Shown piece after piece: positions 4,132 through 31,214 of a stretch of 31,880 nucleotides of DNA (position 1 is its first letter; the number at the start of each line of letters is the position of its first letter). This DNA comes from a virus: IMG/VR virus record IMGVR_UViG_3300005831_000025, positions 1-31,880 of that record. One strand, written 5' to 3'. The notes under the pieces were generated by a model, which saw nothing but the letters and a program-made list of their open reading frames with translations, was not told the DNA's origin and did not search any database. The translations under genes were made by a program, and so were the position numbers.

Positions 4132-7100
4132 TTAATAGGAACTTACCCCTAAATTATTCAATCTTGAAACTAATACTTGACCTATTCTATCTGCATCCCT
4201 ATCATTCATAATGGTATTACCAGTTACATTGACTGTTACACCACTTGATTGTTGTCTTCTAGATTGTAAATCTGTAGGTATAGCTTTTGCAGTTATTGTT
4301 TGAGATGTATTACTACCTAAAGCAACTACTTGTTGTATACCAGTTGATTGACCAGTTATAGCAGAAACCGACCTTACAGATTCTAAAAGACTATTGATCT
4401 GAGATTTAATAGGTGCTTCCATTAACTTCAAACCTTCTAAAAGTCTTTCGCCAAAAGATTTACCTTGATTTAACCAATCTGGATTGTATGAATTTAAAAG
4501 TTTAATAATATCATCTTGACTATTATTAATCATCAAATATTGAGCTTCCATTTGAAGATTTTCTTGTTTTAATAACTCTTCCCATTTAGAAGCAGATGCT
4601 TCCTTTCTTTGGTCAGCTTTTTGTAAGTTTAATTCAAGTAATCTTTCTTCTTGTTGCTTTCTGTTTTCATATTCTAAATCAAACTGCTCTTTTCTAATTT
4701 TAGCATTGGCTTCGATATCTTTTATTGATGCTTCCAAACTAGCTATTCTTAAAGTTCTTTCTTCTAAAACCTTTTCTCTTTGAATCTCAGATAATGTATC
4801 ATCCAATTCTTGTTGCTTTTTAATCTTTTCGTCTGAATCTTTAGCTTCATCAACTTCTTTAGTCAATTTAGCAATTTTATCAGCATTAGACTTTTGTTTA
4901 GATGCACGTTCCTCTTCTTTGGTTAAATGGTTAATGCCATCAATTTCAACTTGTTTAGCAGTAATGCTATCTTTAGTTTGTTGGTCTAAATATTGGATTG
5001 ATTCATCATATATGCTTTTGTAAACTTTCATGTTTTCTTCGGATTGTTTTTTAAGATTACTTATTGATTCATCTAACCTTTTATTTTCAAGATCTCTTTC
5101 TTTTTCATACCTGTTCTTTAAAGCATTAATGATAGCATTACCCATGTCATTCATCTCATCTTTAAAGTCATCGATGTACTTTTTCTCAGCTTCTTCTTTA
5201 GCCTTGATTGATTCTTTTATTTTATTTAAGTATGTTTTTTGATTATTTATAGACTCTTCTTGAGCATTGCGTTCCTCAGTTATCAAGTAATCATTAATAT
5301 CTTTTTCAGCTTTAATCTTATCTTCATTTGTATCAGCTTTATCTCTAGCTTTAACCAACTCTGAATATCTAGCATCTTTTTCTTGTTGAGCATATATAGC
5401 TTTAGTTTCTTCGTATTGTCTTTCAAGCAATTCAATTTGTTCATCAATACTATCTTCGGTCATATTAATAATGTCATTTGATATTTGTTCAATCGAATAT
5501 AGTGCCATACCTGAGCTTTCTTGAACTCCAATAGCCAAACCTTCAACTATATTTTCACCATATTTAGTAAATACTTTAGATGGTGATGCTATTCCAAGAA
5601 GTCTTTTAAAAGTGCCTCCAATTGCATTGCCTATATTAGTTATAGCATCTTTAACAAATTGTATGGCTCCATTAATACCTTTGGATATACCACTAACAAC
5701 TGAACTTCCCCATCCAGAAGCCTTTTCGATTAAAGAAGTGAATACATCTGTTATAGTATTTATTATTCCATTAAATGCTGTTTTAATGTTATCCCAAGCA
5801 CCAGAAGCAAAATTACCAATGCTAGTAAATGCATCACTTATAAAATTTTTTATATTATTAAAGTTATTTTTTATTATACCCCAAAGAGTTCCTGCTAATT
5901 TACCAATACCATTGAATACATCTCCTACAAAATTTTTAATATTATTAAAGTGCTTTTGTATTTGAGTCCAAAGTATTCCAGCCCATTTAGTTATAGTGTC
6001 CCAATTTTTCCACAACAAAACACCTATCGCTACAAGTACTCCGATTGCTATAGCTACTAAAGCTATTGGATTCGCACTCATAGCAAGATTTAATAACCAT
6101 TGTGCTACTGTTAAACCTTCTGTAGCTAAAGTGAATGCTACCCATGCTTTTTTTGCCGCAGTGATAGCAGTAGTGACACCAGTTATAAGTGTTTGAATAC
6201 CCATCGCTACTTTATAAGCAATTAATGCAGCTGTTACACCTGCTATTACAGGTTCTAATTTTTCAAATTCATCAGATAAATCTTTTAATCCATCTATTAC
6301 ATCTTCAGCAACATCTATAGCTTTATTAAAAGCAACTTCCAATGCATCCATTGCAGTTTCAACAACTTTTTTAATGATTGGCATGTATTTATCAAAGTCA
6401 TCTTTGATTTGCTTAACTAGCGGTGCCAAATGATCTTTAATAACGTTTTTTACTTTGTTAAATGCAGTTTCTGATTTATCCATTGCATCTTTGATAGCTT
6501 CTTTTATTGCTGGCATCTTTGGAGTTATCCAATCATAAAAATCTTTTAATGCAGGCAATACATAAGTACTCAGAACGCCCCATACTTTGTTAAATGCAGT
6601 TTCTGATTTATCCATAGCCGTATTAATGATTGCTTGTATGGTAGGCATGTGAGCCGTTATCCAATCTCTAAACTCAGCTAACTTTGGAGCTACTTTTTCT
6701 TGGATTACTTGAAATATGCCAACTTCAAAACTTCTTTTAATAGATTTAATTGTTGTAGCTAAACTATCTAATTTCTTTTCATTTAGTTTATCCATTGCAG
6801 TACCTGCTATACCTAATTGATAATTAGTGTCGCCCATTGCTTTTACTACTTTTGGACCAAGATCTTCCCACGTAGTTCCAAATAATTGTACTCCAACTGC
6901 ATTTTGAGCAACTGGATCTTTCATCTCACCGAGTTTTTGCATAACAATCATAAACGAATTTTTAGCAGATTCTCCACCTTTGGCAAAACTTTGAGCCATA
7001 TCATCAGCTGATAAACCTAAAGCACTCATACCTTCTGCTGTGCTTTTAGAACCAGACTTTGATAATATAGTGAATTCTTTCATGGCATCGCCAATCTTGT

Positions 7101-7855: not shown

Positions 7856-8143
7856 TCACCTCTTTTGGTCAATGTTTTTGATTTTATTAACTTTATCTAA
7901 CAAATCATTCTTAGACTTTGTATTCATTGGCTTTAATTTTTCTTTAGGTTTCGATTGATTTAATCCAGCTTTCCATTCTTCGAATGATTTGAAATTATCC
8001 TTTTCCATTCTATCTACCATCTTTAAATAGAATTCCCATAAATTTTTCTCGCCATCTTCATCAAATGCCTTTACGAGCATTTTGAAAGCAAAGTTGAAAG
8101 GCATCTTACCTAAATGATTTAGGTTATACCTACTTAACTTCAT
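7856..8143 (-). CDS. Tail assembly chaperone, downstream (-1) frame
   Basis: 95 aa from its own ATG, but probably made mainly as the C-terminal half of a frameshift fusion with 8161-8490. The frame is -1 relative to the upstream gene and stays open upstream as far as the T7 run at 8179-8185. The fusion would be about 211 aa. The sequence is charged and helical (NLWEFYLKMVDRMEKDNFKSFEEW), fitting the T half of G/GT-type chaperones that bind the tape measure. It ends 7 bp before the tape-measure start, and its AGAGGTGA end supplies that gene's ribosome site. No clear ribosome site precedes ATG 8143, which favours synthesis by frameshift. Confidence 0.75.
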   Translation of the reverse strand: MKLSRYNLNHLGKMPFNFAFKMLVKAFDEDGEKNLWEFYLKMVDRMEKDNFKSFEEWKAGLNQSKPKEKLKPMNTKSKNDLLDKVNKIKNIDQKR

Positions 8144-8160
8144 ATATATAGTAGGATAAT

Positions 8161-8490
8161 CTACTTGCTTTCTGATGTAAAAAAACTTTTAATATCTTTA
8201 CTATTCATAATTTCCATTATTACATCTTTAATCTCTAATATGTTCATTTTCTTAACGTCTTCAACGCTTTTTTCCATCATATTTGCAATCAATTGATTAA
8301 CTTCTTTTCGTGCTTTATATAGTTTCTTAAAGAAAGTTAATACTATCTTAGTACCATACTTTTGTTGAATACTATCAAGTTCATTCTTGCTTACTATCTT
8401 TCTATCTTGTTTGAAATCTGGCAATTCAAAGTCCATCTTGTCCATAATTTCACTGATTAAGTACATGTCATCAACTATTAAACTTCTCAT
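8161..8490 (-). CDS. Tail assembly chaperone (gpG-like)
   Basis: 109 aa, ATG behind AAGGAGAGATATTT. It is small and mostly helical (DLDELPDFKQ-type acidic start, KKLYKARKEVNQLIANMM, DVKKMNILEIKDVIMEI), and sits between the major tail protein and the tape measure, the fixed position of the G chaperone. Its last codons are AGT TTT TTT ACA, so seven T lie just ahead of the stop and offer a -1 slip into the next frame. Confidence 0.78.
   Translation of the reverse strand: MRSLIVDDMYLISEIMDKMDFELPDFKQDRKIVSKNELDSIQQKYGTKIVLTFFKKLYKARKEVNQLIANMMEKSVEDVKKMNILEIKDVIMEIMNSKDIKSFFTSESK
8179..8185 (-). promoter_or_regulatory. Programmed -1 frameshift slippery site (T7)
   Basis: Seven T on the minus strand, read T|TTT|TTT in the upstream frame. 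Slipping by -1 re-pairs Phe codons with Phe tRNA and continues TAC ATC AGA into the downstream frame, with no stop before 7856. A small stem (AGTAG/CTACT) starts about 13 nt downstream and may act as stimulator. Confidence 0.7.
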
Positions 8491-8814
8491 AAATATCTCT
8501 CCTTAAATAAATAATATTTATATTTATATATCTATCATCATATATAGTGTTCTTTGATGTCTAGATGGGTATTAAAGCTCTTTAACCATTTTTAAGGTCT
8601 AATTATACATTAAAATATTGAATCGCTTTAAACAGCCTTAAATCGTTTAGTTATATATTTACAAGCATTACTAATATTTTAAATACTATAAACATCATAT
8701 AGGTCTATTTAACGTTTCCTTGGCTATATAGGCATTATTAATATATAGTGGTACAATTATACCTTTTACACTAATAAAGCCTTATATAGCCTTAGAAACA
8801 TCAATCAACACATA
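8491..8814. other. 324-bp structured intergenic region
   Basis: No gene is visible. It contains two copies of the recurring motif (8632-8648 and 8699-8717) and a strong hairpin at 8722-8791, listed separately. It lies between the major tail protein and the chaperones, where transcript levels usually drop sharply. Confidence 0.5.
8722..8791 (-). ncRNA. Long hairpin between major tail and chaperone genes
   Basis: Arms GGCTATATAGGC (8722-8733) and GCCTTATATAGCC (8779-8791) pair over 12 bp with one bulge. Inner stems ATTATT/AATAA and AGTG/CACT continue the pairing. No T tract follows on the minus strand, so it does not look like a classical terminator. It may be a 3'-end stabiliser of the major tail mRNA or an RNase III site; the function is unknown. 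Confidence 0.5.
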
Positions 8815-11794: not shown

Positions 11795-12751
11795 CTATAC
11801 TTTAGTTATTCCTGTAATACTCCACCCACGACCTGTAAGCGTTGTTACTGCTGTATCCGATGTTGATGATCTTGTTTTTCCTGTTGCTGTAAATGTTCCG
11901 TTATTTTTTGTTGTTGATGCATAATTTATAAGTGTTTGATCCATATCGTTTGTTGTTAATCCTGTGTTTGATAAAATTGTTATTGTTGGTATTCCAGCGT
12001 CAACAGGTGTATATATTCCTGTTACAAGTGTACAATTACTCAATCTTAAAGAATTAGTTATTTTACCTTGCAGATCTGCTAAACTACCTGTTACAAGTGT
12101 ACAATTACTCAAGTCTAAATAATTAGTTAATTTACCTTGCAGATCTGCTAAACTACCTGTTACAAGTGTGCAATTATATAAACTTAAGTAGTTAGTTATT
12201 TTACCTTGCAGATCTGCTAAACTACCTGTTATTTGGGTGCAATTATATAAACTTAAGTAGTTAGTTAATTTACCTTGCAGATCTGCTAAACTACCTGTTA
12301 TTTGGGTACAATTATATAAAATTAAGTAGTTAGTTATTTTACCTTGCAGATCTGCTAAACTACCTGTTATTTGGGTGCAATTACTCAAGTTTAAATAGTA
12401 AGTTAATTTACCTTGCAGATCTGCTAAACTACCTGTTACAAGTGTGCAATTACTCAAGTTTAAATAGTAAGTTAATTTACCTTGCAGGTCTTTTAATTTT
12501 CCTATATATCTTGAATCTGTTGCGTTATCATTAACTTGTACAGTACTACCATTAATTTTTTTAGCATAAAGTTTAACAGTTTCATCGCTAGCCAATGTGA
12601 ACGCAGGTCTATTTGTAAAGCTAACTCGACCATCTGGAAATACCCATTTTACAAAACATCCAGTGACCGAAAAATCAAAAAGTCCAGCATCACAAGGAAA
12701 TAAAATAGGTTTTAATTTACTTAAATTTTTATTTAAAGCTGGATTAATCAA
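11795..12751 (-). CDS. Leucine-rich-repeat surface protein
   Basis: 318 aa. The start is TTG at 12751, overlapping the previous TGA stop (TTGA) with GAGGGG upstream, so translation is coupled. Residues 1-83 form an N-terminal domain (CFVKWVFPDGRVSFTNRPAF). Residues 84-244 are seven 23-aa repeats of the form GSLADLQGKLTNYLxLxNCTxxT, a solenoid of leucine-rich type with regular Leu, Asn and Cys. Residues 245-318 form a closing domain (NTGLTTNDMDQTLINYASTTKNN..., LTGRGWSITG) that I associate with phage LRR-type proteins. It is placed among head genes rather than tail genes, so it may decorate the capsid. LRR solenoids bind proteins or glycans; the ligand is unknown. Confidence 0.75.
   Translation of the reverse strand: MINPALNKNLSKLKPILFPCDAGLFDFSVTGCFVKWVFPDGRVSFTNRPAFTLASDETVKLYAKKINGSTVQVNDNATDSRYIGKLKDLQGKLTYYLNLSNCTLVTGSLADLQGKLTYYLNLSNCTQITGSLADLQGKITNYLILYNCTQITGSLADLQGKLTNYLSLYNCTQITGSLADLQGKITNYLSLYNCTLVTGSLADLQGKLTNYLDLSNCTLVTGSLADLQGKITNSLRLSNCTLVTGIYTPVDAGIPTITILSNTGLTTNDMDQTLINYASTTKNNGTFTATGKTRSSTSDTAVTTLTGRGWSITGITKV
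12020..12502 (-). repeat. Seven in-frame 69-bp tandem repeats
   Basis: The 69-bp unit encodes 23 aa. Units share long identical stretches such as ACCTTGCAGATCTGCTAAAC, and differ mainly at LVT/QIT, KL/KI and the NLS/SLY positions. The first unit is the most diverged (GKLKDLQ). High DNA identity points to recent expansion by slippage or unequal crossing over. Confidence 0.9.
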
Positions 12752-22851: not shown

Positions 22852-23376
22852 TTATCGTATTAAAATAAAGGCAGGTTTATTATCTATAATATTAGGTATA
22901 GTAGTATGAAAAAATACTACTATTTTATGTCTTGTATTATGTTTATTAATTATCTAAGTGATCGAAAAATTTCTAAGTGATATTTCTAAGTGACTCAAAA
23001 TCCTAAGTGATTATTCCTAAGTGAAAATTTATTTTCTAAGTGAACCTAAGTGATTTTCTAAGTGAATAATTTTCTAAGTGATAATTTTCTACGTCGCAGA
23101 AAGTGAATTTCTAAGTGATTTTTATATAATATTTCTAAGTGAAACACCTACGTCTTAATTGATATGACTGTGTTTCAGTATTTTCTACGTCGCAGCTTTT
23201 TCTAAGTGATATTTTCTAGGTGATTTTCTAAGTGGTATAAGTGATGATTTCTAAGTGATAAACTTTTCTAAGTGTCACTTAGTAATTTTCTAAGTGATTT
23301 TCTAAGTGACACCACTTAGCTTTTCTAGGTGATATTTTCCTAAGTGACATCACATGATTTTCACTTAAAAAATGAC
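22852..23376. other. Gene-free region between two terminators
   Basis: About 525 bp with no credible ORF on either strand. Almost all of it is the CTAAGTGA array below. Because it is bounded on both sides by minus-strand terminators, any minus transcript that starts inside it would be a short non-coding RNA ending at 22813-22851. Confidence 0.55.
22954..23346 (+). repeat. Iteron-like CTAAGTGA array
   Basis: About 18 exact CTAAGTG units (for example 22954, 22973, 22986, 23003, 23017, 23036, 23046, 23074, 23111, 23202, 23302), usually in the context TTTTCTAAGTGAT. There are also variants CTACGTC (three, two followed by GCAG) and CTAGGTG (two), and inverted CACTTAG near the right end. Spacing is irregular, about 10 to 25 bp. 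Two units face inverted partners, giving hairpins CTAAGTG-T-CACTTAG (23268-23282) and CTAAGTG-ACAC-CACTTAG (23302-23319). This resembles a replication-initiator, partition or multi-site regulator target. Confidence 0.85.
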
Positions 23377-23412: not shown

Positions 23413-24807
23413 TTATAATTCTTTTACAAATATGCTTTTATTTCTTTTAGTTGGATGTTTCATTACTACTCCCAAACTTTCCAAGTATCCATATATCTTC
23501 TTGCCTTTGTGTTCAGTTATACATATTGCATTCGATATTTTAGTAGTGCCTAAACATTCATTTTCATTGTTCAAATTATTAATCATATAGTTATAATATT
23601 CCTTTAAAGATTTATCATCTATGTTTGAATCTTTAAACATATCACTTTTTACAATATCGGTTTGATTTACTTTAATTGGTTTTTCTGCTTTCTTTATATA
23701 TGCCATTGCTGGTTTCAAATCTTCATCACTTATTATTATTTCATTTGAATCATACTTTTTAGAATCTGATTCTATCTGACTATTAATATAGTTTTCATTA
23801 TCAATAAACACTTCTGATTTATAATACTTTACTTTAGTGATTTCTTGTTTAGGTCTAGATATTATACAAACTAATAAAAATACTGCTTCGAATAACCAAT
23901 AAAATCCTTTAGTTGCAATCTCTGCGTTTGAACCAAAAGCATAATCATAAGCCGATTTTTTTTTCAATGAACTATCTGGATTTATTATTTTAGTATTTAG
24001 ATTGCTTAAATCTGTTTGTAGTTTACCAATATCGTTGGATAAAGTATCTATTCTTGATTGTATTCCACTAGCCGAATTGTTACTTTCATTTAATTTATCT
24101 CTAGATTCTATTAATTTCTTCTTGTCATTTTCTAAAGTTGATATTTCTTTTCTCAATCCAGTTATTAAAGATCCAGTTTCTTTTAATCCAGAATTTTTAT
24201 TAGCTGTTATTTGACTATTCAAACTTGATATTTTTGAATCCTTTTGTTTAACTTGAGAGTTTAAATCATCTCTCAATTTCTTATCCTCTGATGAACTATC
24301 TTTGTCACTAGTCATTGCCAATGCATAATTACTATTTTCAGTATCTAATAGTTTTGTTTTAGTATCTATTTGAGATTCAATCATTTTTTTTTCGCTTTCT
24401 AATGTCTTGTATTCTTTGGAATTTTGTATGCTCGATGTTTTACTATCTTGAACTTGTTTTAATGTATACCCAGCCATAGACATAGTTGAGTACCATAATA
24501 AAGCAATCCATACTGGTATGAATATTATCCTAGTAGGAATATTAAGCTTTTTAATTTCATTTTTAAAGTTAAATTGACCATGAATTATTCCTATTGGCAA
24601 CAATGTCTGAATAATACCCAGACCAAAGGCTCTACTTATCTGAAAAGTTTTACCAAGGTAATCGTCTGATGTTTCTGCCCAAAAAGATATGTTTATAACC
24701 ATCATTATAACTATTCCAATCCACTTTACAATTACCAATTGTAAACCATCCATATTTGAAAACTTATTCTTCAAATACTCTAATCTAGAAACTTCTACTT
24801 TATTCAT
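23413..24807 (-). CDS. Four-pass membrane protein with coiled coil and putative winged-helix tail
   Basis: 464 aa, ATG behind AAAAGGTGGTCTAAAA. Three N-terminal membrane segments (about 23-43, 60-77, 93-113) are followed by a long coiled coil (~125-275, repeated LESEKKMIES, LRKEISTLENDKKKL, IDTLSNDIGKLQTDL) and a fourth segment (~300-317, FYWLFEAVFLLVCIIS). The remaining ~145 residues are soluble. The last ~50 (TKISNAICITEHKGKKIYGYLESLGVVMKHPTKRNKSIFVKEL) read as helix, recognition-type helix and basic wing. With an inside N-terminus the parity puts the coiled coil outside and this tail in the cytoplasm. I know no named family for it. Adjacency to the CTAAGTGA array suggests it could bind that DNA; this is inference. 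A lysis or exclusion role is an alternative. Confidence 0.75.
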   Translation of the reverse strand: MNKVEVSRLEYLKNKFSNMDGLQLVIVKWIGIVIMMVINISFWAETSDDYLGKTFQISRAFGLGIIQTLLPIGIIHGQFNFKNEIKKLNIPTRIIFIPVWIALLWYSTMSMAGYTLKQVQDSKTSSIQNSKEYKTLESEKKMIESQIDTKTKLLDTENSNYALAMTSDKDSSSEDKKLRDDLNSQVKQKDSKISSLNSQITANKNSGLKETGSLITGLRKEISTLENDKKKLIESRDKLNESNNSASGIQSRIDTLSNDIGKLQTDLSNLNTKIINPDSSLKKKSAYDYAFGSNAEIATKGFYWLFEAVFLLVCIISRPKQEITKVKYYKSEVFIDNENYINSQIESDSKKYDSNEIIISDEDLKPAMAYIKKAEKPIKVNQTDIVKSDMFKDSNIDDKSLKEYYNYMINNLNNENECLGTTKISNAICITEHKGKKIYGYLESLGVVMKHPTKRNKSIFVKEL

Positions 24808-26851: not shown

Positions 26852-27058
26852 ATGAAATATATATCTATAAATATTAAAAACAGATTAAAATACAATAAAA
26901 TGAAAATAAAGGATCTAGAGTCTATACTTGGTATTAAGAATAGAACTTTATCAAGATACATAAATGGACATGTTATATTTAAATTAGAACATATTATAAA
27001 ACTATCAGAAGTTTTCAATTGTTCAATAGATTCATTGGTAAAAAAAGGAGATGATTGA
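26852..27058 (+). CDS. Cro/XRE-type HTH regulator 1
   Basis: 68 aa from ATG 26852, with GGAGG 8 nt upstream; a TTG at 26837 is unlikely. The sequence IKNRLKYNKMKIKDLESILGIKNRTLSRYINGHVIFKLEHIIKLSEVFNCSIDSLVKKG is a complete XRE/Cro fold: helix 2-3 KDLESILGIKNRTLSRYI, then the helix-4 LEHIIKLSEVF and 'SIDSL' end. It is the same length as 28026-28232 and about 43 % identical to it by eye. It is probably a repressor or antirepressor acting at the TTTACTTT sites upstream; which is CI-like and which Cro-like cannot be told. Confidence 0.85.
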   Translation: MKYISINIKNRLKYNKMKIKDLESILGIKNRTLSRYINGHVIFKLEHIIKLSEVFNCSIDSLVKKGDD

Positions 27059-27059
27059 T

Positions 27060-27275
27060 ATGATTCAAAAAGAATTTATACAAATATATTCAATGAAATT
27101 AGCTGGCATACTTATGATATATGGTCACCAGCTTAAAAGAATGGAACATAATCCACAAAAATTTGGTTATAAGACTTATATCTTTAAAAATACTCCAGCA
27201 CTTATACAAACTATTGCAGATTATAAAAAGAAACTTATAGATTATAAAACTGAATTAAATCAAGTATATAAGTAA
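27060..27275 (+). CDS. DUF5659-like small protein, copy 1
   Basis: 71 aa from ATG 27060; the ATG at 27051 directly abuts GGAG and cannot use it, and the start chosen matches that of copy 2. The core reads MIQKEFIQIYSMKLAGILMIYGHQLKRMEHNP, then KTYIFKNTPALIQTIADYKKKLIDY. Start and HTH stop are 1 bp apart, so the two are coupled. It is likely a small DNA- or protein-binding factor of the early region, but the family has no known function that I can cite. Confidence 0.7.
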   Translation: MIQKEFIQIYSMKLAGILMIYGHQLKRMEHNPQKFGYKTYIFKNTPALIQTIADYKKKLIDYKTELNQVYK

Positions 27276-27298: not shown

Positions 27299-27469
27299 AT
27301 GAAAATTAATTGCTTAACATGTAGTCATGGTAATCATGATTGTACTAAAAGAGATACTAGATTAGAAAATATAGAATGTGATAATTATCGACAAGTTAGG
27401 TATGAAACTATTCCAATTAAACTTAAAAATGGTAATACTAGTTATAGATTTATAGAGTTTGAAAATTAA
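27299..27469 (+). CDS. Cys-rich 56-aa protein
   Basis: ATG 27299 behind AGGAGTTGACGCAA. The sequence MKINCLTCSHGNHDCTKRD..ECDNY has Cys5, Cys8, Cys15 and Cys27 with His10 and His13 between, which suggests a small zinc knuckle. The rest is charged (IPIKLKNGNTSYRFIEFEN). It follows copy 1 of the DUF5659-like genes by 23 bp. Such tiny zinc proteins in early phage regions often target host factors, but nothing here shows which. Confidence 0.7.
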   Translation: MKINCLTCSHGNHDCTKRDTRLENIECDNYRQVRYETIPIKLKNGNTSYRFIEFEN

Positions 27470-27481
27470 AAAAGTGAAAAA

Positions 27482-27548
27482 TTGATGAATTTCCCAGACT
27501 CCTATATATAGTAGGCTATATTATATAGGAGTAGGGAGAATTCATCAA
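27482..27548 (+). ncRNA. Covarying hairpin H1
   Basis: Outer arms TTGATGAATTTCCC (27482-27495) and GGGAGAATTCATCAA (27534-27548). Inner arms ACTCCTATATA (27498-27508) and TATATAGGAGT (27522-27532). Compared with H2 (27816-27916), two outer-stem pairs change on both sides (T-A to A-T and A-T to T-A), so pairing is conserved. On the minus strand a T-rich tract follows, but no minus-strand gene ends here. Confidence 0.7.
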
Positions 27549-27612
27549 AAATGATGTAAAAATAAATATTTACATAAAAGATTATATTTTATACAAAGGA
27601 GTGACTAATATT

Positions 27613-27816
27613 ATGCAAAAAAAATACATTGCTATTTATTCAAAAAAATTGGCTGGCTTATTAATGGTTAATGGTCATCCATTAAAAAATATAGCAATTA
27701 ACCCAAAAATGTATGGTGTTGACATATACATATTTAAGAATACTGAATTGCTTAGAGAGATTATGGAAAAATATAATAAAAAGAAGTTTGATTATAGATT
27801 AAAAGCTAATATATAA
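27613..27816 (+). CDS. DUF5659-like small protein, copy 2
   Basis: 67 aa from ATG 27613 with AAAGGAG 11 nt upstream; GTG 27601 overlaps that site and is unlikely. MQKKYIAIYSKKLAGLLMVNGHPLKNIAINP, then DIYIFKNTELLREIMEKYNKKKFDY, parallels copy 1 over its whole length. It is flanked by hairpins H1 and H2, and its stop lies at the first base of H2. Confidence 0.7.
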   Translation: MQKKYIAIYSKKLAGLLMVNGHPLKNIAINPKMYGVDIYIFKNTELLREIMEKYNKKKFDYRLKANI

Positions 27817-27916
27817 TTCTCAGATGCCAAAATTGAAGATTTTCCGATACCGCTATATATAGTAGACTATATTATATAGGAGTACCCGAAAATCTTCAAA
27901 ATTTGAATCTGAGAAT
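27816..27916 (+). ncRNA. Covarying hairpin H2
   Basis: Outer arms of 29 nt (27816-27844 and 27888-27916) pair with about 25 of 29 matches. The inner 32 nt (27853-27884) match H1 at all but one position (27502-27533). The arms are homologous to H1 (TTGAAGATTTTCC against TTGATGAATTTCC) with compensating changes on the other side. Confidence 0.7.
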
Positions 27917-27966: not shown

Positions 27967-28018
27967 CCTCCATACATTCCTTATATAGTGTAGGGAATAA
28001 AAATAAAATATATGGAGG
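27967..28018 (+). promoter_or_regulatory. Ribosome-site hairpin at second HTH gene (H3)
   Basis: CCTCCATA (27967-27974) is an exact complement of TATGGAGG (28011-28018), which contains the ribosome site of the gene starting at 28026. An inner ATTCC/GGGAAT pairing adds to it. If folded, it blocks initiation. The core (TTCCTTATATAGTGTAG) resembles the other leader elements. Confidence 0.65.
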
Positions 28019-28025
28019 TTTCATT

Positions 28026-28232
28026 ATGAAACATATTGGTAAAAAAATCAAAGCTAAATTAAGAGCAAACAAAATTAAGATTAAAACTTTGTTACCACTT
28101 TTAGGAATCAAAGAAAGGCAACTTTCAAATTGTATGAATAACCATGCAGAATTTAAATTAAGAGATATAGTAATAATAGCAGGATTATTAAATTGCACAG
28201 TCGATGAACTAATTAATGAAATGGAGGGTTAA
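28026..28232 (+). CDS. Cro/XRE-type HTH regulator 2
   Basis: 68 aa from ATG 28026, 7 nt after GGAGG; longer readings back to 27954 run through hairpin H3 and are rejected. IKAKLRANKIKIKTLLPLLGIKERQLSNCMNNHAEFKLRDIVIIAGLLNCTVDELI aligns without gaps to regulator 1. Turn and recognition residues differ (ERQLSNCMNNHAEF against NRTLSRYINGHVIF), so operator choice is likely to differ. It ends 4 bp before the helicase start and is co-transcribed with it. Confidence 0.82.
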   Translation: MKHIGKKIKAKLRANKIKIKTLLPLLGIKERQLSNCMNNHAEFKLRDIVIIAGLLNCTVDELINEMEG

Positions 28233-28236
28233 ACAT

Positions 28237-31071
28237 ATGAAAAACTTACAAATTAAGTGTTCTTTGGACACTGTAAAATACGAAAGTAAACCATGTTCAA
28301 ATGATATAATGAAGATTAATCAAAGAATGGCTCAAAATTCTAATGATTATAGTAAATATTCATTACCATATAATAAATTACCAGAATTGATTGGTGAAAA
28401 AGGACATACATTTTGCGGTGCAATATTTAATGGTGCTAAACAAGTAGTTAACTTCAAAGCACAACAAATGTTTGGATTAGATTTCGATAATGGAATAACA
28501 TTTGATGAAGTTGTAAAAAGATGTGAAAAGTATGATTTACCAATATCATTTGCATATGAAACTTTTAGTTCTGTTAATTGTAGTAAGTTTAGAGTAGTAA
28601 TGTTACATTCATTCAATATTATAGATACTCAAGTTGCATCATTAATTCAATTAGCTTTAATGACAATATTTCCAGAATGCGATAAAGCCTGTAAAGATGT
28701 ATCAAGATTATTCTTTGGTGGTAATAAGAAATGTATATATGTAAATGAAGATATTGATAATGCATGTTTTACAGTTGATAAGTTGATGTTTAGTTTATAC
28801 TCATACTTAAGATATTCAGATGAAGTAAATCTTGCTAGAAATATAAAAAACTTTGCTTCAAATACTGGTATAGAGTTAATTAACAATATGCCATTTATAA
28901 GTATTGTTGGAGATAATGAAGTTATAGAATCAAATGAAGATCCGTCAAAAACTACTTATGTATATGAGTGCGACGATTTGAATTATATTATAACAATGTC
29001 TAATAATGTATCAAAAGGATGCAAAAATTTAAATAATCCAAAATATGATTATAGTAATACTAAAATGAATTTTGATAATATCCAAAAATTTAACTTCAAA
29101 ACATTATCTGAGAAATGTAAATTATTTAATGAATTTGAAAATGGTTCAGAGTGGTTATATCATCAAGAATTATTTGGATTGGCTCAAAACCTTTGTTGCA
29201 TAAAAGGCGGTAAAGAATTATTCTTAAATATATTATATAGTGATAAAAATTCAGAATATCCAAGTTATAGAGATAAGAATTGGAATTACTATACTGATTA
29301 TGTAAGAAAGAACTATAATCCATGTAGATGCGATGGATTTTGCAAATATAAAGATACTTGTAGCCATGGTAAAAATTTAATCGGTCAAGTATATCAATCA
29401 AACAATACTATCGAAGTAGTATCTAAAGTTGAAACTATTACATTAGAAGAAACTGAAAAGAGATTAGTTGAAGCTTTCAACACTATAAGAAATGGTGAAA
29501 AAGGAAAAGTGTATTGTTTAAAATCTAGCGTTGGAGTTGGCAAAACTCACCAAATGATTGAGCTTGGTAAAAATAAAAATATAATGTATGCATTACCTAC
29601 ACATAAATTAAAAGATGAAGTTTATAATAGAGCAATTGAAAATGGATTGGATATCAAATCTACTCCAATGATACCAATATTAGAAGATTTAGAATTGAGT
29701 TCAAAAGTAAATAAATTTTATAACAATGGAAATTTCAAGTTGGCTAGAAACGAAATGTATAAATATGTACAAAACCACAACAATGATGATGCAAAAAAAA
29801 TAAATGAATACTTTGCTAATGAAGAAGATGCTTTGAACTTTAAGGGTTCATTGGCAACTACACATAAGAAAGCAGTTCATTTAGAAAACGTTTACCAAGA
29901 TATAGTTATATACGACGAAGATATAACTAACTCAGTTATAGAAATTAAAAGCATTTCTATAAAAAATTTAATTGACTTACAAGATAGAATTTCTTTTAGT
30001 AATAACGATGAATCAATACAATTTGCCAACGAATTGATTCAAATAATTAACAATAGCGATGTTTATACTACTTGTACATTAGATGTAGACTCTAAGAAAT
30101 TAAAATCTTTCATCAAATTAAATAATAGTACTTTAAACTTTTCAGTAGATTCACCAATATTAGGCTTTTTAAATGCTGACTTTTTCATCAAAGTACCAAT
30201 TGTATCAGAAGATGAAACAACTTATGCTATTTATTTTGTTGAAAAGTTCGAATTAAATAAGTCTGTTATCAATGTTATTCTATCTGCTACTTTAGATTAT
30301 AATATATGTAATAAGCTTTTTCAAGACCGTTTAGTTTGGATAGATATTGGTGAAACTGAAAATGCTGGTAATCTATACCAAGATATTAGTTATTCTTGCA
30401 GTAGAAGTAGTTTATCAAATAAAAGCACTGAGTCTAAAATTAAAGAATTCATAAAATCAAAAGAAATTGATAATGTAATAACTTTTAAAGCATCTGAATC
30501 AGAATACAATGCATCATTACACTTTGGAAATGTTGAAGGCTTCGACTTCATGAGTGGTAAAGACTTAGTTGTAGTAGGTACTCCACATTATTCAAACATT
30601 AAGTATTTATTATTAGCATCTGCTTTAGGTTATAAAGTAAATTCAAATAATACAGAGTTTAAACCTCAAAACGTTGAATACAATGGATTCAAGTTTAAGT
30701 TTAATACTTTTAGTGATGTTACTTTAAGACAAATACAATTATGGACTATAGAATCAGAGTTGGTTCAATCTATTGGTAGAGCTAGATTAACTAGAAATGA
30801 TTGCAATGTTTACTTATTGTCTAACTTTCCATTAAAGCAGGCTTCATTCATTAAAGAAGTTTCTAAAATAGAAGTTGTTGAAAAGGTTGAAGATATAATT
30901 AAAGAAATTCCAGAACAAGAAGTGTTTGAATATGTATATGCTGATATTGAAGATATTATAAAAGAAATTGATATTATGGAACATCAAGTTATAGAAATGT
31001 TAATAAACGATGGAGTATATTTTGATATATTTGAAGTTGATTGCAATGAAAATTTTTTTAGAGCATCATAA
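28237..31071 (+). CDS. Primase-like / SF2 helicase fusion, replication protein
   Basis: 944 aa from ATG 28237, behind GGAGGGTTAAACAT; an earlier in-frame ATG at 28216 overlaps the previous gene. N-terminal part (~45-195): GLDFDNGITFDEV (80-92), YETFSS, KFRVVM (117-122), FPECDKACKDVSRLFFGG (145-162), a pattern I recognise from archaeo-eukaryotic-primase-like domains of phage and plasmid replication proteins. A Cys cluster follows (Cys363, 365, 369, 375, His377), a probable zinc site. Helicase part: Walker A VGVGKT (432-437), ALPTHKL (452-458), DEAD-like VIYDED (557-562), and motif VI QSIGRARLTR (~844-853). It probably unwinds and primes phage DNA. No phage DNA polymerase is present, so host polymerase is needed. 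Confidence 0.85.
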   Translation: MKNLQIKCSLDTVKYESKPCSNDIMKINQRMAQNSNDYSKYSLPYNKLPELIGEKGHTFCGAIFNGAKQVVNFKAQQMFGLDFDNGITFDEVVKRCEKYDLPISFAYETFSSVNCSKFRVVMLHSFNIIDTQVASLIQLALMTIFPECDKACKDVSRLFFGGNKKCIYVNEDIDNACFTVDKLMFSLYSYLRYSDEVNLARNIKNFASNTGIELINNMPFISIVGDNEVIESNEDPSKTTYVYECDDLNYIITMSNNVSKGCKNLNNPKYDYSNTKMNFDNIQKFNFKTLSEKCKLFNEFENGSEWLYHQELFGLAQNLCCIKGGKELFLNILYSDKNSEYPSYRDKNWNYYTDYVRKNYNPCRCDGFCKYKDTCSHGKNLIGQVYQSNNTIEVVSKVETITLEETEKRLVEAFNTIRNGEKGKVYCLKSSVGVGKTHQMIELGKNKNIMYALPTHKLKDEVYNRAIENGLDIKSTPMIPILEDLELSSKVNKFYNNGNFKLARNEMYKYVQNHNNDDAKKINEYFANEEDALNFKGSLATTHKKAVHLENVYQDIVIYDEDITNSVIEIKSISIKNLIDLQDRISFSNNDESIQFANELIQIINNSDVYTTCTLDVDSKKLKSFIKLNNSTLNFSVDSPILGFLNADFFIKVPIVSEDETTYAIYFVEKFELNKSVINVILSATLDYNICNKLFQDRLVWIDIGETENAGNLYQDISYSCSRSSLSNKSTESKIKEFIKSKEIDNVITFKASESEYNASLHFGNVEGFDFMSGKDLVVVGTPHYSNIKYLLLASALGYKVNSNNTEFKPQNVEYNGFKFKFNTFSDVTLRQIQLWTIESELVQSIGRARLTRNDCNVYLLSNFPLKQASFIKEVSKIEVVEKVEDIIKEIPEQEVFEYVYADIEDIIKEIDIMEHQVIEMLINDGVYFDIFEVDCNENFFRAS

Positions 31072-31102
31072 CTTATATTTAGTAAAACTTGTATGATTAT
31101 TT

Positions 31103-31168
31103 ATGTTTACATATTATATGTTTACATTATGTATCTTATATAATTGTACAAGTTTACAATGTAAACAT
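31103..31168. repeat. ATGTTTACAT repeats with inverted partner
   Basis: ATGTTTACAT occurs at 31103-31112 and 31118-31127, and AATGTAAACAT at 31158-31168 is its inverse, giving an 11-bp stem. It lies 30 to 100 bp past the helicase stop. No T tract follows on the plus strand, so it could be a weak terminator or a protein-binding site. Confidence 0.5.
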
Positions 31169-31214
31169 ACTATTTTCAATTTATAAAGATCAAAAGTCAA
31201 ATATCTATATTCCG

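Follow-up and report, generated by a model that had tools for sequence, protein, structure and literature searches.

For many small phages and integrated elements whose initiators are PrimPol-like, no replication origin is known to us. Lambda-type origins are situated within the gene of their own initiator, between its domains, and are built of iterons, not of a hairpin. In the Sulfolobus plasmid pRN1, a 100-bp stem-loop beside the PrimPol-helicase gene is necessary for replication (PMC4234260, PMC3869888). This stem-loop is movable, and relatives keep the structure and not the sequence, while a like stem-loop has been suggested 3' of rep in the Bordetella phage BIP-1 (PMC4234260). In pRN1 the loop is needed and is long, a single copy lies downstream of rep, and the helicase belongs to SF3. 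The RSF1010 primase RepB' binds hairpin DNA directly, with one ssi per strand in opposite orientation and a GTG primer start 3' of the hairpin (PMC4434180). In the SCCmec set Cch2/CCPol-MP, Cch2 binding depends on direct repeats (PMC7581432). These descriptions follow the portions of the cited papers that were available to us.

The DNA considered here (the window) is a complete IMG/VR virus record of 31,880 bases, which may be a fragment. Its terminase has its nearest relatives in Streptococcus, thermophilic Bacillus-type and Psychrobacillus phages. Most of the window consists of leftward genes, and a rightward gene set begins at about 26.85 kb, in the order HTH, DUF5659a, a small CxxC ORF, H1, DUF5659b, H2, a second HTH and rep. 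A preliminary description of this DNA had placed two homologous hairpins around a DUF5659-like gene, and we observed both of them there, H1 and H2. The features are as follows.

26852–27058, plus strand: HTH gene (HTH1), first of the rightward set (domain search)
27060–27275, plus strand: DUF5659 gene a, a paralogue with 49% identity to gene b (Pfam and sequence comparison)
27299–27469, plus strand: small CxxC ORF upstream of H1 (ORF list)
27482–27548, no strand assigned: H1, 67 nt, 12 nt from the stop of the small CxxC ORF (inverted repeat, folding)
27502–27533, no strand assigned: conserved AT-rich core of H1, 32 nt, 31 of them shared with H2 (alignment)
27613–27816, plus strand: DUF5659 gene b, between H1 and H2 (PF18903, 30.3 bits over a cut-off of 23.6)
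27816–27916, no strand assigned: H2 with an extra outer stem, 44-nt arms, 82% complementary (sequence comparison; no such stem was seen in H1)
27833–27899, no strand assigned: H2, 67 nt, homologous to H1, 16 nt past the DUF5659b stop (inverted repeat, folding)
27853–27884, no strand assigned: AT-rich core of H2, 32 nt (alignment)
28026–28232, plus strand: small Cro/C1-type HTH gene (HTH2), immediately upstream of rep (phrog_4583)
28237–31071, plus strand: rep, 944 aa, with a predicted AEP primase domain and a putative SF2-like helicase (predicted fold, motifs)

HTH2 matched phrog_4583, a transcriptional repressor family, at E 2.9e-6 (its Pfam matches were under the cut-off), and the small CxxC ORF matched neither Pfam nor PHROG at E values up to 0.1. 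A third, weaker hairpin at 27967–28019 (z −2.5) has its 3' arm over the ribosome site of HTH2, and may serve translational control. Directly after rep, 31102–31169 holds repeated TGTTTACAT motifs and an imperfect palindrome. Elsewhere, a tandem repeat at 11949–12500 (period 69 nt, seven overlapping 138-nt copies) lies within a minus-strand gene and encodes LTGSLADLQGK-type repeats. The membrane proteins of the window (23413–24807, minus strand) and of the related locus L046 (1775–3091) are alike by eye, and are perhaps segregation proteins. When the right third of the window was compared with phages by megablast there was no match, and distant blastn gave nothing beyond short matches covering 2–13% of the query. 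The terminase search led to another record, L004 (77%), in which neither Rep nor DUF5659b was found; the examined part of that record has other replication-type genes.

We searched the entire window for inverted repeats (at least 24 nt, arms within 150 nt) and obtained four pairs, with H2 and then H1 at the top of the list. As RNA, H1 folded with z −6.2 on the plus and −9.6 on the minus strand, and H2 with −10.4 on both; as DNA the z values were −8.5 to −9.4. In none of the eight folds (H1 and H2, both strands, RNA and DNA) did any of 200 shuffles fold equally well. The hairpins are 81% identical over 73 nt, and their cores, which were identical at 31 of 32 positions, are direct repeats in the same orientation. 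With up to three mismatches the core pattern occurred at H1 and H2 only (0 expected), so that no third copy was found in the window at this threshold; the exact core patterns gave no match in viral contigs. The window had no Rfam match reaching the gathering score. Intrinsic terminators were dropped as an explanation since none was scored at H1 or H2. By eye, the minus strand of H1 does have TTTTT after the stem. The minus strands of both hairpins (27520–27548 and 27871–27899) carry a promoter-like TTGA[T/A]G-17 nt-TATAAT; the AT-rich region has 89 such sites against 91.4 in shuffles, which is no excess. In integron attC sites the ends are conserved and the centre varies; H1 and H2 show the reverse pattern (fixed centre, varying ends), and attC was rejected. 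IS200/IS605 ends were also rejected, as no transposase was seen between H1 and H2.

The compensating double changes that had been reported in the outer stem are indeed there, as two compensated pairs, with a third further in. Outside the core, therefore, three pairs have changed on both sides with pairing kept. Two further pairs vary only to G.U on the minus-strand reading. In plus-strand letters there are six one-sided changes, of which three lose and three gain a Watson-Crick pair, and one more one-sided change falls at a position unpaired in both copies; the preliminary description does not mention these. The covariation values observed between H1 and H2 were reached by 54 of 500 shuffles. 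Covariation from two sequences is weak, and the two copies alone are insufficient to prove selection on pairing, as had been claimed from them. At the right edge of the core GGAGTA is kept while its partner strand partly is not, indicating that part of the element is conserved as sequence.

At the level of the family, selection on pairing is supported. Eight hairpins from one Rep subfamily had 80% Watson-Crick pairs in the outer ten pairs, compared with 51.5% (sd 6.4) when the 3' arms were permuted, and only 2 of 20000 permutations were as high. These hairpins (from L063, three from L064, two from L067, L072 and L073) were picked after hairpins had been seen; L064 and L072 belong to the same cluster, and we excluded L074 and L075, which duplicate L073, along with the weaker internal hairpin of L063.

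The protein encoded downstream, Rep (P0002, 944 residues), had one PHROG family match, of unknown function, and no Pfam match up to E 0.1. We modelled its first 330 residues with AlphaFold2 from an alignment of 23 sequences (pLDDT 82.8, pTM 0.75). The model matched the AEP domain of the cyanophage S-2L PrimPol (Foldseek E 2.4e-4; Z 10.7, rmsd 2.9 over 139 residues for S-2L PrimPol (VIA)), the CAPP PrimPol (Z 8.3) and RSF1010 RepB' 3h20 (Z 7.5, 149 residues, rmsd 5.8). The N-terminus is thus predicted to be an archaeo-eukaryotic-type (AEP) primase domain. AEPs carry a motif-II histidine; it was not seen in the window's Rep. In the C-terminal half, the motifs GVGKT, YDED, SAT and QSIGRAR could be picked out by eye, and the homologues from L044 and L032 matched DEAD at 1.3e-4 and 5.8e-4 (below cut-off), which together suggest an SF2-like helicase. 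No close relatives of Rep were found in viral contigs or genome contigs. An alignment search in viral contigs gave 38 loci. Relatives were also present in 12 of 391 genomes of the class of genome G005 (an uncultured Oscillospiraceae), which we take to be Clostridia; the closest Rep by E-value in whole genomes was that of L109 (39%). No further Rep locus came from genome searches that covered the families around G335, G206 and G1078.

When we scanned for strong hairpins around each rep (GC-corrected), an unexpected pattern was seen: a long hairpin, often in two parts and AT-rich at its tip, lay about 550–760 nt into rep, directly after the primase domain, in the most variable linker of the protein. 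The first scan took in all loci with near-duplicates, and the counts use one locus per 80% cluster (35 clusters, the window among them). For 13 of the 35 clusters, the region's strongest hairpin fell in the bin +520..+759 (expectation 1.5, binomial 1e-9), and for 22 this bin had a hairpin among the top three. The bin ranked seventh or lower in ten (L029, L034, L037, L038, L039, L046, L068, L070, L072 and the window); in the window's own rep, where it ranked 8 of 28, there is no strong internal hairpin. Two hairpins of L029 with related cores in opposite orientation lie downstream of rep (about 5420–5453 and 6069–6150), and this locus has no internal hairpin.

Since the bin had been chosen after the first scan, 13 new loci were fetched. 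The strongest hairpin lay at +653..+815 of rep in six of them (0.7 expected), or in five of 12 if L118, which carries the exact L055 hairpin, is set aside. In L090, the rep-internal hairpin was the second strongest, and L110, L111, L112, L113, L086 and L117 had none in the top four. Six named phage or plasmid records (L080–L085; Staphylococcus, cyanophage and cyanobacterial) had none in the cluster bin in the top four, the open frame of L080 not being settable; the Staphylococcus plasmids L082 and L083 have a strong hairpin 0.96 and 1.5 kb upstream. A fixed protein reading was rejected as the cause of the internal hairpins, since their centres fall in all six half-codon phases (8, 6, 5, 3, 2 and 2 among 26 clusters). 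A P-I-I reading is nevertheless common to several full-length Reps.

To relate H1 and H2 to the rep-internal hairpins, a covariance model built from H1 and H2 alone (R1) was searched up to E 10 in 53 loci. It found 24 distinct places outside the window, of which 12 were rep-internal, against an expectation of 3.7%, the rep-internal share of the bases; these 12 come from six clusters. E exceeds 0.1 at 18 of the 24 places, and the best match, which lies upstream of rep, was in L046 (E 0.002). Among the loci fetched later, R1 matched the rep-internal hairpins of L115 (E 1.4e-4) and L109 (E 5e-4).

The cores were also compared directly, against 68 other hairpins of the loci ('elsewhere' hairpins being drawn from the top three per locus). 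The cores of seven first-set internal hairpins from full-length Reps resembled the H1/H2 core more (mean z 2.4 vs 0.2, p 2e-5), and with L109 and L100 added the nine hairpins gave a mean z of 2.8 (p 1.2e-5). This figure leaves out L115, whose rep is truncated where the contig ends, and L090, whose rep has an in-frame stop; when these are also counted, p is 1.2e-6. The new set of seven includes L118, with the L055 hairpin, and both L090 and L100 from one genome. The internal hairpins of 19 other clusters were less like the H1/H2 core (mean z 1.0, p 0.0015).

The L046 hairpin core had a z of 3.8 against the H1/H2 core. The two hairpins of this locus share the same 32-nt core without a difference and are separated by 4.3 kb, in a layout as in the window, and one of them sits between two DUF5659-like ORFs immediately upstream of rep. 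The two copies (227–295 and 4560–4628) have their internal-loop arms on swapped sides, as if the core had been flipped by recombination between the arms. Same-core copies within one locus also occur in L064 and L067, inside rep and at or after its end, and in L029, L037, L070 and L071 there are hairpin pairs that match better inverted than direct. On these sequence comparisons, H1 and H2 are matched to the rep-internal class by core and context, not by position.

The flanked gene is DUF5659-like, as had been proposed: P0001 is a member of PF18903 at 30.3 bits, and P0003 (31.6) and P0004 (25.4) also exceed the cut-off of 23.6. We scanned small ORFs upstream of rep in 14 loci, picked by eye or by tblastn. 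A DUF5659 match was seen in nine (L042, L044, L046, L055, L061, L063, L067, L072 and L109), at 13.5 to 30.7 bits, above the cut-off in L055 and L109 only, and was absent in the other five (L054, L056, L081, L082 and L083). In L109, two ORFs with about three DUF5659-like stretches, two of them matched within one ORF, lie in a row directly upstream of rep (7933–8509, minus strand); in the window the second HTH gene stands between DUF5659b and rep. Of the two L046 ORFs, the first is without a Pfam match, but its DNA repeats the second at 70%. Weak DUF5659 tblastn matches were seen in L116 and L118. In L011, the 8 kb around DUF5659 has inverted repeats, more than 1 kb away. A tblastn search of phages with DUF5659b gave no match, close relatives of it were not found in viral contigs, and the DUF5659 alignment gave no match there. 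We found no paper on DUF5659 in a literature search. The distribution suggests that DUF5659 is tied to this kind of Rep, and that the DUF5659 gene flanked here may be part of a wider pattern.

We consider it somewhat better than an even chance that H1 and H2 are DNA-level replication signals (origin or primer-start hairpins) of the phage's own initiator, Rep; they would more probably help to start replication of the phage genome than act as RNA switches. In negatively supercoiled or unwound DNA, the palindromes would be extruded, giving hairpins whose tip is AT-rich. Rep, possibly assisted by a small DUF5659 or HTH protein, would recognise the core together with the form of the stem, open the AT-rich tip and lay the first primers there. 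The stems would drift by compensated changes while the core stays, because they only need to pair. A like element lies in the variable rep linker after the primase domain in many relatives, and upstream in two copies in this phage and L046. The preliminary description had also offered binding sites of an early protein, which would fit if that protein is Rep. The cumulative GC skew of the window has its minimum at about 26–28 kb, as would be expected of an origin at this place, but gene direction switches there too.

The same description had suggested RNase III sites or small RNAs, and there is a small but real probability that H1 and H2 are RNA elements of the early transcript, that is, RNase III sites or mRNA-stability or regulatory hairpins between small genes. 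Each hairpin lies 12–16 nt past a stop codon and ahead of the next ribosome site, the RNA folds are very stable, and the stems gain G.U pairs on the minus-strand reading. That strand, however, is antisense to the genes, the like element lies inside a coding gene in many relatives, and neither a terminator nor an Rfam family was found at H1 and H2. On the sense strand, the rep-internal stems (33 hairpins) had 22 G.T against 34 A.C, which taken alone is not uneven (p 0.14), while 69 other first-set hairpins had 81 against 46 (Fisher p 0.003 between the two); an earlier strand test gave 14 against 26 internally and 83 against 49 elsewhere (Fisher p 0.003). The RNase III and small-RNA proposals are thus less likely. 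Together, the subfamily covariation, the lack of a sense-strand G.U excess and the unfixed codon phase favour selection on DNA structure. A DNA-level role could also be that of palindromic double-stranded operators at which HTH1, HTH2 or DUF5659 would control the early genes. The region has an HTH gene on either side, and both hairpins carry the promoter-like site on the minus strand; such sites are no commoner than in shuffles, however, and a dimer operator requires fixed half-sites, whereas in H1 and H2 it is the centre that is fixed and the arms that vary. As the association in relatives is with rep, and also inside rep, we regard operators as quite unlikely.

The iteron-like array of TTTCTAAGTGA at 22951–23371 is a good rival candidate for the replication origin, with H1 and H2 then serving another step. 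It has 20 sites with at most one mismatch in 421 bp (18 plus, 2 minus), where 1.65 would be expected in the entire window, both strands included. AAGTG iterons are required by the SCCmec helicase Cch2, according to the available part of PMC7581432. The sites are irregularly spaced, directly after a terminator-like site beyond a membrane-protein gene. However, the array is about 5 kb from rep, past that gene, and could equally be a partition site; it was searched for in the window, and the family link to Rep belongs to H1 and H2. We therefore think it unlikely that the array is the origin. That the hairpins are small mobile palindromic elements, which copy themselves to sites in and near rep and serve no function for the phage, appears very improbable. 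Same-core copies are multiple in the window, L046, L064 and L067, and the internal-loop arms are swapped between the L046 copies, but there is no third core copy in the window, and Reps that have diverged very far show the hairpin at a recurring position, just past the primase domain, which random insertion would not give.

Taking H1 and H2 as replication signals of Rep, the locus resembles pRN1/ORF904 in having an AEP-type primase-helicase initiator with a long stem-loop adjoining its gene (PMC4234260, PMC3869888, in the parts available), and in that the structure is kept while the stem sequence drifts, though not in every relative here. Unlike in pRN1, there are two upstream copies here, the element is inside rep in relatives, a short AT-rich core is kept, the helicase motifs seem by eye to be SF2-like and a DUF5659 gene is a neighbour. 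By analogy, the simplest reading would be that H1 and H2 work for this Rep like the essential pRN1 stem-loop. RSF1010 ssiA/ssiB are similar in that an AEP-fold primase recognises single-stranded DNA hairpins there, and the Rep domain aligns to RepB' (PMC4434180, available part). In contrast to the opposed ssi sites, the H1 and H2 cores point the same way, and by eye no GTG was seen within about 30 nt 3' of either hairpin on either strand. As in lambda-type origins the element lies inside the initiator gene in relatives, although it is a hairpin and not iterons, and the proteins are different. The SCCmec Cch2/CCPol-MP system is alike in being a primase-helicase set of a mobile element, with a small protein as partner and a putative origin nearby (PMC7581432, available part). 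Among the papers listed in a literature search (in one case the first 20 of 77), with subscription papers mostly outside its scope, the titles and abstract openings gave no in-gene stem-loop origins of this kind.

We tentatively propose, at rather less than an even chance, a widespread and undescribed class of origin, in which AT-cored, covarying DNA hairpins lie in the coding sequence of AEP primase-helicases of phages and integrated elements, are upstream or duplicated in some, and have DUF5659 as a small, dedicated partner protein that helps recognition by Rep. The hosts of such elements would, by inference, be mostly Firmicutes. If a hairpin that computation can find beside rep or within it marks the origin, dozens of uncultured elements would gain an origin that can be tested. 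Such a hairpin would also be a case of DNA structure conserved within protein-coding sequence, and would place DUF5659 in a functional context.
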